Positions 17,259-25,273 of a stretch of DNA of 64,000 nt are shown here, piece by piece. The notes beneath the pieces were generated by a model that saw only the letters and a program-made list of their open reading frames with translations, was not told where the DNA came from and searched no databases. Made by a program: the position numbers and the translations under genes. The stretch's first letter is position 1. The number at the start of each line of letters is the position of its first letter. Source of the stretch: an uncultured Pelagibacteraceae bacterium (lineage in GTDB: Bacteria > Pseudomonadota > Alphaproteobacteria > Pelagibacterales > Pelagibacteraceae); the NCBI GenBank assembly GCA_902629575.1, contig CACORJ010000001.1:144271-208270 (forward strand), written 5' to 3'.

Positions 17259-17332
17259 TGGTGCTCCCACCCTGTACTGACCAGGGAACTAGTCATTACC
17301 AATGACTTGTTATACCATTTAACTACAGGAGC
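17259..17332 (-). tRNA. tRNA-Thr(GGT) with atypical T-loop
   Basis: Minus strand GCTCCTG TA GTTA AATGGTA TAAC A AGTCA TTGGTAA TGACT AGTT CCCTG GTCAGTA CAGGG TGGGAGC A CCA; full cloverleaf, encoded CCA, anticodon GGT. Confidence 0.9.
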
Positions 17333-19942: not shown

Positions 19943-21222
19943 AAATATTAAATAGTAATAAAAAATTTTTTGATAAAAAATTAGATAGGTTATTATCAAA
20001 TAGAAGAAAAAAAGTCAGTTTTAGTGCGGTTTCAGTTAAAAATATTATTAAAGATGTAAAAAAAAATGGAGATAATGCATTATTAAAATATGAAAAAAAA
20101 TTTAATAAAAATTCTGTTATCAGTCCATCCTCAGAACAAATATCAAAATTAATAAAAGGTTTGGATAAAAATGTAAAAAAAGCAGTTGATATTGCTTTCA
20201 ATCGTATTTTCAAATTTCATTCATTGCAGAAATTTAAAAATATATCATATAAAGATAGACTAAATAATAAGCTTGAATATAAATATTTGCCGATAGAGTC
20301 AGTTGGAATATATGTTCCGGGTTCAAGCGTTTCATATCCATCAAGTGTTTTGATGAACGCAATACCTGCACTAGTGGCGGGAGTTAAAAGAATTATTATG
20401 ATTAACCCAAGTTTTAAAGGAAAACTTAATCCTGCAGTTTTATATGCTGCGAGAAAGTGTAGAATTAAGGAAATATATTCAATTGGAGGTCCTTCTGCTA
20501 TTGCCGCAGCTGCTTATGGAACAAAAAAAATAAAACGAGTAAATAAAATTGTTGGTCCTGGAAATGCTTATGTTGCAGCTGCAAAGAAAGAAGTTTTTGG
20601 TGATGTTGGAATTGAAAGTATGACAGCAGGACCATCTGAGGTAACAATTGTTTGTGATAAATATTCGGATCCTGTTTGGATAGCGAGCGATTTAATTGCA
20701 CAGGCAGAGCATGATCCACTAGCACAATGTATTTTGATATCTAAAGACGAGAAATTAATTACAAAAGTAAAATTAGAAATATCTTTACAATTAAAAAAAA
20801 TACCAAGAGAGAAAATTGCAAGAAAGAGTATTACAACTAATGGGATCTTAATGTATGTAAATTCTGATAAAAAAATTACAGAAATAGTAAATAAGATTGC
20901 GCCGGAGCATTTAGAGCTTAATATTAAAAATTATAAATCATTACTTCCAAAAATATATAATGCTGGCTCGGTTTGCCTTGGTAAATATGCAATTATGGCA
21001 ATGACAGATTACAATATTGGATCTAATCACATCTTACCTACAAATGGTTCAGCAAAGTATTCTTCTGGAATAAGTGTTAATGAATTCTATAAAAGAATTT
21101 CTTACATAAAACTATCAAAAAAGGGTATTGAAAGTCTCGGGCCATCAGTTATAACTCTTGCAAATTATGAAGGCTTAGAAGGACATGCTTGTTCTGTAAA
21201 AAAAAGAATTTGGAGAAAATAA
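19939..21222 (+). CDS. hisD: histidinol dehydrogenase
   Basis: [72 protein letters not shown]. Confidence 0.97.
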
Positions 21223-21224
21223 AT

Positions 21225-21440
21225 TTGTCAAAACAAGATCTACTTGAATTTAAAGGTAAGGTAACAGACCTGTTACCAAATGCTATGTTTAGAGTTCAAT
21301 TAGAAAATGGTCATACTGTTACTGCACATACTGCAGGCAAACTTCGAAAAAACAGAATTAGAGTTCTGCAAGGTGATAATGTTACAGTAGAAATGACCCC
21401 TTATGATCTTACTAAAGGAAGAATAATCTTTAGAGGTTAA
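21225..21440 (+). CDS. infA: translation initiation factor IF-1 (probable TTG start)
   Basis: (M)[70 protein letters not shown]. The track's ATG at 21189 lies inside hisD; TTG at 21225 gives the normal IF-1 N-terminus. Confidence 0.94.
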
Positions 21441-21446
21441 TCTTAA

Positions 21447-21521
21447 GGCTGAGTAGCTCAGGAGTAGAGCAGAGCCCTGAAAAGGCTTGTGTCGGAGGTG
21501 CGAATCCTTCCTCAGCCACCA
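21447..21521 (+). tRNA. tRNA-Phe(GAA) with atypical D/T loops
   Basis: GGCTGAG TA GCTC AGGAGTA GAGC A GAGCC CTGAAAA GGCTT GTGTC GGAGG TGCGAAT CCTTC CTCAGCC A CCA. Confidence 0.94.
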
Positions 21522-21598
21522 CCACTTTCAACTTGAAATAATTTTTAAAAGAAATTAACTTTAAGTATTATAAATAACAAAAAGGACTAAGAAACAAG

Positions 21599-21811
21599 AT
21601 GAGTACATTACAGGGTAAAGTAAAATGGTTTAATGGTAAAAAAGGTTACGGTTTTATCGAAAGAGATGACAAAGAAAAAGATGCGTTCGTGCATGCTTCG
21701 GCAGTCAAAGCAGCAGGAATGAGATACTTAAATGAAGGTGATAAATTAGAGTTTACTCTAGAAGATGGTCCCAAAGGTCCTTCTGCAGTTAATCTTAAAA
21801 AATTAGACTAG
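21599..21811 (+). CDS. cold-shock protein (CspA family)
   Basis: [31 protein letters not shown] (RNP1/RNP2). Confidence 0.96.
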
Positions 21812-21830
21812 TATTTTTTAAAAAAAATTA

Positions 21831-21870
21831 AAAGGGCGTTATATCTATTAAAATTAGGTAAACGTCCTTT
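21831..21870 (+). other. 10-bp inverted repeat downstream of csp
   Basis: aaagggcgtt ... aacgtccttt (one G-T), 20-nt loop. Confidence 0.5.
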
Positions 21871-21877
21871 AGATTTT

Positions 21878-21901
21878 AAGGGTTGATTAAATCCTTTTTT
21901 T
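21878..21901 (+). terminator. probable rho-independent terminator after csp
   Basis: AAGGGTT-GATTA-AATCCTT stem-loop running into a 7-T tract. Confidence 0.65.
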
Positions 21902-21917
21902 GTCTAAAAGACTGTTC

Positions 21918-22019
21918 ATGATAAATAAAATGTCTAATAAGCTGTCAAATAAAAGTACTCAAAGATCCACTTTTAGAGGAACTAATATAGGTACGCACAG
22001 ATATTGGCATGCTAGCTAA
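21918..22019 (+). CDS. possible 33-aa small ORF in the csp/tRNA-His intergenic region
   Basis: MINKMSNKLSNKSTQRSTFRGTNIGTHRYWHAS*; stop codon lies in the loop of GCTAGC-TAAA-GCTAGC. Confidence 0.3.
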   Translation: MINKMSNKLSNKSTQRSTFRGTNIGTHRYWHAS

Positions 22020-22087
22020 AGCTAGCAATTAATTTTTATAATATAATTTTAAATCCACTAAAAATAATATAAAACCAAAAAGGATAT

Positions 22088-22161
22088 GCCTTGGTGGTGA
22101 AATAGCATCACGTCGGTTTGTGGATCCGAAGTCGTAGGAGCGTAACCTACCCAAGGTACCA
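22088..22161 (+). tRNA. tRNA-His(GTG), G1:U72, A73, no encoded G-1; atypical D/T loops
   Basis: GCCTTGG TG GTGA AATAGCA TCAC G TCGGT TTGTGGA TCCGA AGTC GTAGG AGCGTAA CCTAC CCAAGGT A CCA; base -1 is T. Confidence 0.93.
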
Positions 22162-22165
22162 AAAA

Positions 22166-23560
22166 ATGAATAAAGAAAATAAACTCAATCCATCCTTACC
22201 ATCTGGATTTGAAGATCGTTGGGGAAAAAAGCTAGTTTTAAAAAAACAGCTTTTACAAGTGATTGAAAAAAATTTTATAAAATTTGGGGCCGAACCTTTA
22301 GAAACCCCATCTTTTGAGATAAGTGAAAATATAGGATCTTTTCTAGCAGAAGATGAAGCTAATCCTATGTCTGATGTTTTTTTATTTAAAGATGGAGATA
22401 AAAATATTACTTTGAGATATGACTTATCTAGTCCGCTCGCGAGGTTTGTAGCTCAGAATAACCAAGAACTTCCAACAATTTACAAAAGATATGCTATTCA
22501 AAATGTTTTTAGAAATGAAAAACCTGGCAATGGAAGGTATAGAGAATTTCTTCAAGCTGACTTTGATATAATTGGCAATACCAATCCCGCACAATCAAAT
22601 GCTGAACTTTGCAATTTGATTTCAGCGACTTTATTAGAATGTGGTCTTAAAAAAGATCAATTTACTATTAATGTTAGTAATAGAAAAATTGTTCAAGGTT
22701 TGATTGACGAGCTTAATATTTCTTCTGAAAAACAAACAAAAGTGATTAGAGCAATTGATAAATTAGATAAACCTGGGTTTGGTTTATCAGGGGTCGAGGC
22801 TTTACTTAAAAAAGAGAGAAAAGATACTTCGGGTGCAATCACGAAAGGTGCAGATTTAAATGACGTTCAAGTGGAAAGAATTTTAGATTTTCTAAAAATA
22901 AAAGATCTAAAAAAATTAAAAGATAAGTTTACAAATCCACTATCTCAAGAGGGGATAAAAGAAATAGAGGACGTCTTCCAAATTCTTGGATTTGGAAAAT
23001 ATAAAAACCAAGTTCAAACAAATTTTACAATCGTGAGAGGCCTTGCTTATTATGATGGGTTTATCGTAGAGACAAATTTAAATTTTGAAGTAAAAAATAA
23101 TAAAAAAAAAGTAATTGATATAGGTAGTATTTGCTCAGGAGGTGCTTACGCAAAACTTATTTCAAGATTTAAGGGTGTAGATATACCAGGTACAGGAATT
23201 TCATTTGGAGTTGATCGATTATTGTTTGCATTAATGCAACTAGATCAAATAAAGATTAATGAACAAAAGCCAGTTCTAGTTTGTGTTATGGATGAAAAAT
23301 ATTTGAAAAATTACTATGAAATTTTAGAGCAATTAAAAGCTAACAATATCAGTGTTGAGATATTTTTAGACACAAAAAAGAATTTAGGAAAACAACTTAC
23401 TTACGCAAATAAACGTAAACTTGATCTTGCTATAATTTGTGGTGAAAATGAATTTAATGAAAACACAGTTACAATAAAAAACCTTAAAGGTATTAAGGGT
23501 GAAAACAATCAAACTATTCCAAAAGAAAATTTAGTTAATGAAATCAAAAAACTTATCTGA
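22166..23560 (+). CDS. hisS: histidyl-tRNA synthetase (alphaproteobacterial type)
   Basis: LPSGFEDRWGKKL, LRYDLSSPLARFVAQN, RNEKPGNGRYREFLQADFDIIG, GLAYYDGFIVE, GISFGVDRLLFAL. The track start (22118) lies in the tRNA; ATG 22166 is the first plausible start. Confidence 0.94.
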   Translation: MNKENKLNPSLPSGFEDRWGKKLVLKKQLLQVIEKNFIKFGAEPLETPSFEISENIGSFLAEDEANPMSDVFLFKDGDKNITLRYDLSSPLARFVAQNNQELPTIYKRYAIQNVFRNEKPGNGRYREFLQADFDIIGNTNPAQSNAELCNLISATLLECGLKKDQFTINVSNRKIVQGLIDELNISSEKQTKVIRAIDKLDKPGFGLSGVEALLKKERKDTSGAITKGADLNDVQVERILDFLKIKDLKKLKDKFTNPLSQEGIKEIEDVFQILGFGKYKNQVQTNFTIVRGLAYYDGFIVETNLNFEVKNNKKKVIDIGSICSGGAYAKLISRFKGVDIPGTGISFGVDRLLFALMQLDQIKINEQKPVLVCVMDEKYLKNYYEILEQLKANNISVEIFLDTKKNLGKQLTYANKRKLDLAIICGENEFNENTVTIKNLKGIKGENNQTIPKENLVNEIKKLI

Positions 23561-24584
23561 AAATATACTTAAATCAGTAAAGTCAAAAGGATTTAAGTTA
23601 ATAAATTTACCATCAGTAATAGAAGCCAATCACATTGTTCAAAGATCAGGTGAAAACTTTAGGAAATTTATATTTTCATTTATTGATCAAAATGGCAGTG
23701 AATTATGTTTAAGGCCAGATTTAACGATTGTATCGTGTTTAAGATATTTAGAGAACAATCTAAAAGGCAAAGAGAAAATATTTTATAGTGGTCAGGCTTA
23801 TAGAAAATCACAGAACAAAAAAGACTCTATTATTAGAAATCAAATCGGATTTGAGATTATTGGTTCTAAAAATGAAAAAAATGATGACAAAGAAATAATT
23901 AATACCTCTCTTAAATCTTTACAAAATCTAAAATATAGTTCTGGTACTTTAACAATTGGCAATATTGAAATTTTTAATCTTCTTATTTCAAAGTTAGATA
24001 TTCCGAAAAGATGGAAATTAAGGCTATCAAGACATTTTTGGAGAGAAAGTTATTTTAATGATCTTTTAAAAAGACTAGAAACTAACTCTGATGTTGATCC
24101 AACTATTGTTGAAGTTGATAAAAGACGCTACTTAAAGATGTTGAAAGATAATCAATCTAAAGTTGTTGCAGGGAGATCAATAAAAGAAATCTTAAAAAGA
24201 TTTGATCATAAGATAAAAGACCCAAGAAGAACAAATAAAGGTAAAAACGTTTCAAAAATAATTAAAGATTTTTTAAGAATAAAATGTCCAATAAATAAAG
24301 CAGCCAGTGAATTAAACAAATTTTTTAAGAAATATAAGATTAATCTTGCTGTAGATCAAAGATATTTTCCTTTGTCACAAAATAAAGTTTCGAAACTAAA
24401 TGTTATTTTTTCTGCCTCATTTGGAAGACAACTTGAATATTACACAGGAATGGTTTTTAGAATTGATATCAAATCAAATTTAAAAAATAAAAATGTTATT
24501 AATGGTGGAAGGTATGATCACTTAATCTCAGATCTTGGATCTAAAAAAGAGGTTCCAGCAGTTGGGGCTGCATTAAATATATGA
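23538..24584 (+). CDS. hisZ: HisZ-like ATP phosphoribosyltransferase regulatory subunit
   Basis: HisRS-like core: LCLRPDLTIVSCLRYL, GQAYRKSQNKKDSIIRNQIGFEIIG, FGRQLEYYTGMVFRI, NGGRYDHLI; between hisS and a short hisG. Confidence 0.88.
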   Translation: MKSKNLSENILKSVKSKGFKLINLPSVIEANHIVQRSGENFRKFIFSFIDQNGSELCLRPDLTIVSCLRYLENNLKGKEKIFYSGQAYRKSQNKKDSIIRNQIGFEIIGSKNEKNDDKEIINTSLKSLQNLKYSSGTLTIGNIEIFNLLISKLDIPKRWKLRLSRHFWRESYFNDLLKRLETNSDVDPTIVEVDKRRYLKMLKDNQSKVVAGRSIKEILKRFDHKIKDPRRTNKGKNVSKIIKDFLRIKCPINKAASELNKFFKKYKINLAVDQRYFPLSQNKVSKLNVIFSASFGRQLEYYTGMVFRIDIKSNLKNKNVINGGRYDHLISDLGSKKEVPAVGAALNI

Positions 24585-25273
24585 TGAATGATATCATAAA
24601 TGTTGGAATTCCTAGCAAAGGTAGACTTAGAAAAGATGTTTTAAATATCTTTAAAAAGAAGAAATTAAAACTTTTTTCTGAGAGAGGAGAAAGAGATTTG
24701 CTTGCATCAATTAAAGGTAAAAAGAATATTAAAATTATTTATTTACATGCGCGAGAAATTATTCAAAGATTAGGAGAGGGTTCTTTAGATTTTGGATTTT
24801 CTGGATTTGATTTATTTAAAGAGAGCGAAATTAATATTCAAAATAAAATTAGTGTCAGTAAAAAATATAATTTTGGTAAAGCAAAATTAGTTGTTGCTAT
24901 TCCTGATGAATGGATTGATGTACAAACGATTGCTGATTTAGAGGAAATAGCTTTTGAATTTAAAGATAAAAAAAAGAAAAGATTAAGAGTGGCAACAAAA
25001 TATCCTAACTTAACAAGAGAATTTTTGTTTTCTAAAGGAGTAACTCAATTTAAGTTAGTAAGCAGCTTAGGTGCAACAGAAGCTTATCCTTTCACAGAGT
25101 CTAGTGAGATTATTACAGATATAACTTCCACTGGAGAAACATTAAAAGCTAATAACTTAAGAATATTGAAAGATGGAGAAATATTAAAATCTGAAGCCTG
25201 TATGATGATTTCTAGATTATCTGTTAAAAAAAAAGCTTTGAAAAGTTTGACTAAATTACTTTCTAAGGATTAA
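24581..25273 (+). CDS. hisG: ATP phosphoribosyltransferase, short form
   Basis: VGIPSKGRLRKD, EGSLDFGFSGFDLF, RVATKYPNLTREF, EAYPFTESSEIITDITSTGETLKAN. Confidence 0.95.
   Translation: MMNDIINVGIPSKGRLRKDVLNIFKKKKLKLFSERGERDLLASIKGKKNIKIIYLHAREIIQRLGEGSLDFGFSGFDLFKESEINIQNKISVSKKYNFGKAKLVVAIPDEWIDVQTIADLEEIAFEFKDKKKKRLRVATKYPNLTREFLFSKGVTQFKLVSSLGATEAYPFTESSEIITDITSTGETLKANNLRILKDGEILKSEACMMISRLSVKKKALKSLTKLLSKD

Follow-up and report, generated by a model that had tools for sequence, protein, structure and literature searches.

SAR11 bacteria rank among the ocean's most abundant cells, and a common view holds that their gene regulation is limited. In Escherichia coli, the thrS operator places a tRNA-like structure beside the start codon of a synthetase gene, and in animal mitochondria excision of tRNAs from longer transcripts (tRNA punctuation) sets the 5' ends of nearly leaderless mRNAs. 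Histidine leader peptides are classical in gammaproteobacteria (PMC9413887) and have been predicted in bacilli ahead of hisZ and of a hisS paralogue, where they were reported to be dissimilar in sequence to the proteobacterial leaders (PMC2965389). According to the accessible text of two papers on Pelagibacter, the unusual identity of SAR11 tRNA-His (A73 and no G-1) is already known, and that text makes no mention of a linkage between tRNA-His and hisS, of their spacing or of a leader (PMC3937112, PMC4284800). A survey of structured RNAs in Pelagibacter mentions neither hisS nor leader peptides, and a SAR11 hisS leader is described neither in Rfam nor in the literature that we found; one reason why such a leader may have escaped notice is that the survey dropped tRNA-containing intergenic regions from its table (PMC2704228).

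We analysed a 64,000-nt stretch of DNA (the window) from an uncultured Pelagibacteraceae bacterium (assembly GCA_902629575.1, contig CACORJ010000001.1, positions 144,271 to 208,270), in which a short His-codon ORF and its hairpin lie between cspA and the tRNA-His gene that heads a tRNA-His-hisS-hisZ-hisG unit. From sequence comparison, we consider it likely that this ORF and hairpin form a histidine leader-peptide attenuator controlling the whole unit, and that excision of the tRNA leaves a hisS mRNA with a leader of about 4 nt. The locus is laid out as follows.

21883-21910, + strand: candidate leader promoter P1 (TTGATT, 16 nt, TAAAAG), 7 nt ahead of the leader ATG
21918-22019, + strand: leader ORF of 33 amino acids, MINKMSNKLSNKSTQRSTFRGTNIGTHRYWHAS and a stop codon, with His codons at 21996-21998 and 22008-22010; its homologous position and His-containing end recur family-wide
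22010-22027, + strand: terminator-like hairpin TGCTAGC-TAAA-GCTAGCA, then ATTAATTTTT; conserved stem with compensatory changes and a T-enriched tail
22068-22073, + strand: putative second promoter P2, represented by a candidate -10 element (TATAAA) that lies 14 nt ahead of tRNA-His
22088-22161, + strand: tRNA-His (GUG), Rfam tRNA model 48.3 bits; the sole copy found, in orthologous position across the family
22162-22165, + strand: spacer AAAA from the CCA to the hisS start codon, 4 nt and conserved in length
22166-23560, + strand: hisS, histidine--tRNA ligase (TIGR00442, 341 bits, above cut-off)
23538-24584, + strand: hisZ, ATP phosphoribosyltransferase regulatory subunit (NF008953, 397 bits, above cut-off), overlapping the end of hisS
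24581-25273, + strand: hisG, ATP phosphoribosyltransferase (TIGR00070, 180 bits, above cut-off), with a 4-nt overlap with hisZ

The leader ORF and its hairpin had been overlooked in the first-pass annotation of this DNA. The window's leader ends in THRYWHAS, and His-bearing ends were found at all Pelagibacteraceae loci with enough upstream sequence, in forms such as HRHHFHAG, THRNCFHS and HTHHHTHAKH. All 63 distinct leaders of the family, many of them from close relatives and hence not independent counts, carry at least two His in their last 14 codons, compared with 3.8% of dinucleotide shuffles; in a reverse-strand control, 1 of 63 did so. The amino acid encoded by the last His codon is invariant and only its third base varies (CAT in 58, CAC in 5; n = 63). 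A candidate short ORF with regulatory His codons ahead of histidine-related genes, the arrangement expected of an attenuator, is present in 63 of 63 cases, and certain leaders, the window's among them, contain just two such codons.

The end of this ORF runs into the hairpin. In the window, the last His codon supplies with its third base the first nucleotide of the hairpin's 5' arm, and across all 63 distinct leaders the arm starts 1-3 nt past the first base of the final His codon and the stem measures 6-8 bp. Folding of the hairpin yields a mean z of -2.5 over the same 63 leaders, and two-sided compensatory changes are evident among the stems (AUAGCC/GGCUAU, AUGGCU/AGCCAU, GCUGGC/GCUAGC and CGCAAGC/GCUUGCG). 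The tail 3' of the hairpin holds 7.1 T per 12 positions versus a background of 4.3; because the stem is short and the T-run is interrupted, termination at this site may be weak. Folding from the last His codon onward disclosed no alternative antiterminator hairpin of the kind seen in enterobacterial his attenuators, and the geometry suggests that the ribosome would occlude the hairpin directly rather than act through an antiterminator. The Rfam His_leader model (RF00514) found nothing in 21200-22700 at E values up to 10 and had no hit at the gathering threshold in four related loci, and the T-box model matched neither the window locus (21200-22700) nor the four related loci. A T-box or other known RNA family was accordingly rejected as the identity of the leader region, there being no Rfam match.

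A similar leader stands before the same genes in the sister family, where hisS-hisZ-hisG is directly preceded, at 24 of 25 loci, by an HHHxH-type leader and a hairpin with no tRNA-His; one example, MFKFKHHHYHI, has a 9-bp hairpin after it. The sister-family leader (L146, L374-L403), itself absent from Rfam, has a conserved tail past the hairpin, for example CAATAACCCCTTTTT. At two sister-family loci examined (L146 and L147), tRNA-His and tRNA-Phe form a pair at a greater distance upstream, past an opposite-strand gene. None of 35 alphaproteobacterial genomes sampled outside the order has a tRNA adjoining hisS upstream, and the single His-rich ORF found upstream of hisS among them is distant and chance-like. 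The simplest history would be that the hisS leader is older within the order and that tRNA-His moved between leader and hisS in an ancestor of the Pelagibacteraceae.

The junction between tRNA-His and hisS is tight. The tRNA-His CCA ends at 22161 and the hisS ATG follows 4 nt later at 22166, exactly where the first-pass annotation had placed them, and the conservation of the short spacing in SAR11, which it named as a point to check, is borne out. Among the 121 Pelagibacteraceae loci with a parsable encoded CCA, the spacer is exactly 4 nt in 99, and the nearest ATG lies 3-6 nt from the CCA in 120, the exception being G022 with 27 nt. Variable long spacers in close relatives had been named in advance as evidence against the first-pass proposal; long spacers do occur, in G022 and in G263 (read after the 121-locus count), the spacing being 3-6 nt nearly everywhere else. 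In both genomes (L126 and L414, respectively), the spacer of about 27-33 nt carries a possible hairpin of its own. At three further loci (L127, L129 and L131), tRNA-His lacks an encoded CCA and the hisS ATG still lies 8-9 nt after A73. The same tRNA-His precedes hisS in those genomes of the genus whose hisS upstream region could be read, as well as at 80 named Pelagibacteraceae loci, and the order of leader, tRNA-His, short spacer and hisS is common to four further genera of the family, five in all. Judged by this recurrence, the arrangement is far beyond chance, and a hisS promoter of its own would not fit after tRNA-His. That cutting out the tRNA would yield a practically leaderless hisS mRNA, as had been proposed at the outset, follows naturally from a 4-nt spacer.

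Candidate promoters flank the leader on both sides. Nearly all leaders are preceded by promoter-like TTGAAT or TTGCAT together with TAAAAG or TATTTA, and a P1-type TTG with the same spacing occurs in 88 of 90 distinct segments upstream of the leader. For P2, a TATAAAA-like block lies at a near-fixed distance of about 8-15 nt from tRNA-His in 58 distinct sequences, with no recognisable -35. Because a simple sigma-70 scan near tRNA-His gave no convincing promoter, P1 and P2 are proposed here from comparison; a literature search returned no usable SAR11 start-site maps. Lying 3' of the hairpin, the promoter-like TATAAA block could make expression of tRNA-His and hisS independent of the leader.

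From these features we infer the following course of events. RNA polymerase starting at P1 would transcribe the short leader ORF. When His-tRNA-His is ample, the translating ribosome would pass the final His codons, the fused hairpin would form and transcription would stop before tRNA-His. When His-tRNA-His is scarce, the ribosome would stall at the last His codon and cover the 5' arm of the hairpin, so that polymerase reads on and more tRNA-His, HisRS, HisZ and HisG are made. Basal expression would probably come from P2, a weak second promoter before tRNA-His. The tRNA would then be cut from the transcript and hisS translated from a leader of about 4 nt without a Shine-Dalgarno (SD) sequence; on the uncut transcript, ribosome loading should be hindered because only some 4 nt separate tRNA-His from the AUG. 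An RNase E/G gene is present in the genome, and family models for RNase Z gave weak matches that fall below the cut-off.

A broader reading is tentative, and we would put it at somewhat under an even chance: across this dominant marine family, these elements may form a closed charging loop in which the leader senses charged tRNA-His, the attenuated transcript starts with tRNA-His and HisRS becomes translatable only after excision, so that one switch sets tRNA, synthetase and histidine synthesis. Such wiring, if true, would be unusual, as the sensed molecule would also be the first product and would be controlled together with its own synthetase.

The best-surviving competitor to attenuation, which we nonetheless regard as unlikely, is that streamlining alone accounts for the locus: tRNA-His and hisS would be packed together and cotranscribed from the tRNA promoter, and the leader and hairpin would be a separate, complete unit that stops short of the tRNA promoter and has no control over it. 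The conserved TATAAA block ahead of tRNA-His fits such an account, as does the abutment of ORFs on tRNAs elsewhere. In the source genome, an ORF begins 3-14 nt after 9 of 28 tRNAs, and in 30 of 30 genomes tRNA-Gln lies just upstream of cca, the CCA-adding enzyme gene, the gap being 3 nt in 27 genomes and 4 nt in the other 3 (loci L310-L339, plus L024; cca identity confirmed by family model). Similarly, tRNA-Leu(UAG) sits 5-16 nt ahead of the trigger factor gene tig. Against this account stands the leader: a His-codon ORF with a fused hairpin beside hisS-hisZ-hisG has no obvious use except controlling that unit, and the sister family carries a leader of the same kind directly before hisS with no tRNA between. 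We therefore continue to favour attenuation of the tRNA-His-hisS-hisZ-hisG unit. The tRNA-abutting layout as such is general in compact SAR11 genomes and provides no evidence that HisRS binds its own leader.

That last possibility, raised by the first-pass annotation, holds that HisRS represses translation of its own mRNA by binding the tRNA leader before this is processed, in the manner of thrS, with an SD sequence hidden in the acceptor stem; we consider it highly improbable. A real HisRS ligand does lie immediately 5' of the start codon, where a folded tRNA would be expected to hinder ribosome loading, and we confirmed an AAGG in the acceptor stem at 22153-22156, 9 nt before the ATG. However, this motif changes to AGGG, CGGG, AAAG or CGTG in relatives, and SD-like words precede 7 of the 62 window genes tested versus 8 of 62 at a background position; with this variation at the site and this absence of enrichment, a sequestered SD is not supported. 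A thrS-type operator is a tRNA mimic that overlaps a conserved ribosome-binding site, whereas the SD-like sequence here varies and the element is the tRNA itself, swapped repeatedly; the same layout also stands before unrelated, non-synthetase genes. Feedback through charged tRNA-His at the leader is simpler and better supported than a HisRS operator.

The element has the cloverleaf, GUG anticodon and identity elements of a genuine tRNA-His. In the window, G1 is at 22088, A73 at 22158 and the encoded CCA at 22159-22161; the Rfam tRNA model scores 48.3 bits over 22088-22158, and the identity elements comprise G1.U72, A73 and the CCA, with no G-1:C73. The family holds 26 distinct tRNA-His sequences with at least 16 acceptor stems, and G1.U72 and A73 are kept in all 26. 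Mapped on a quick HisRS tree, tRNA type changes at least 25 times, a rough count owing to recombination and weak branches. The tRNA-His body at the hisS position has been replaced many times within the Pelagibacteraceae. ARAGORN, run on the window, missed the tRNA-His at 22088 because canonical residues are absent from its loops: G18 from the D-loop (AATAGCA) and T54-T55 from the T-loop (AGCGTAA). The idea that this is a tRNA mimic or a decayed tRNA, with the true tRNA-His elsewhere, is scarcely credible: it would account for the ARAGORN miss and the absent G18, T54 and T55, but no further tRNA-His was found across the source genome (assembly 89.5% complete), the complete single-contig relative G012 has exactly one, at the hisS-adjoining position, and the elbow residues change in concert (A18 with G55, A54 with T58), as they also do in other tRNAs.

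The elbow of these tRNAs is rewired. An A18/G55 pair replaces G18/U55 with perfect covariation across the 26 distinct tRNA-His sequences, and in the AGCGTAA T-loops positions 54 and 58 are swapped (A,T in place of T,A). A18/G55 recurs in tRNA-Val(GAC) (L008), which also shares the A54/T58 change, and in tRNA-Phe (window 21447-21521). A tRNA-Thr(GGT) at 17259-17332 on the - strand of the window has an odd T-loop, GTCAGTA, and a normal D-loop GG.

Set against described systems, the predicted leader would be a new, previously undescribed variant of his-operon attenuation. Like the gammaproteobacterial hisL attenuator (RF00514), it combines a short His-codon ORF with a hairpin before histidine genes and would follow the same charged-tRNA-His logic. 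Unlike hisL, it has no Rfam match; its His codons are fewer and scattered, its hairpin is joined directly to the last His codon, no additional antiterminator structure was found, and it precedes hisS-hisZ-hisG with tRNA-His as the first gene. The leaders predicted in bacilli similarly assign a His leader peptide to hisS-family genes, but they belong to Firmicutes, and a tRNA gene between leader and synthetase was not described for them (PMC2965389). With the RRCH-type tRNA-His/HisRS pair of SAR11, as it appears in the accessible text of its two reports (PMC3937112, PMC4284800), the locus shares A73 and the lack of an encoded G-1:C73. As in the thrS operator, a tRNA-like structure adjoins the start codon of a synthetase; here, however, the structure is a functional, sole-copy tRNA, repeatedly swapped, with no conserved SD to sequester. 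The locus would be a bacterial example of nearly leaderless mRNAs created by tRNA excision, with hisS, cca and tig as candidates. As in mitochondrial tRNA punctuation, excision would define the mRNA 5' end, whereas the SAR11 case is bacterial, concerns a minority of genes and is coupled to an upstream attenuator candidate.
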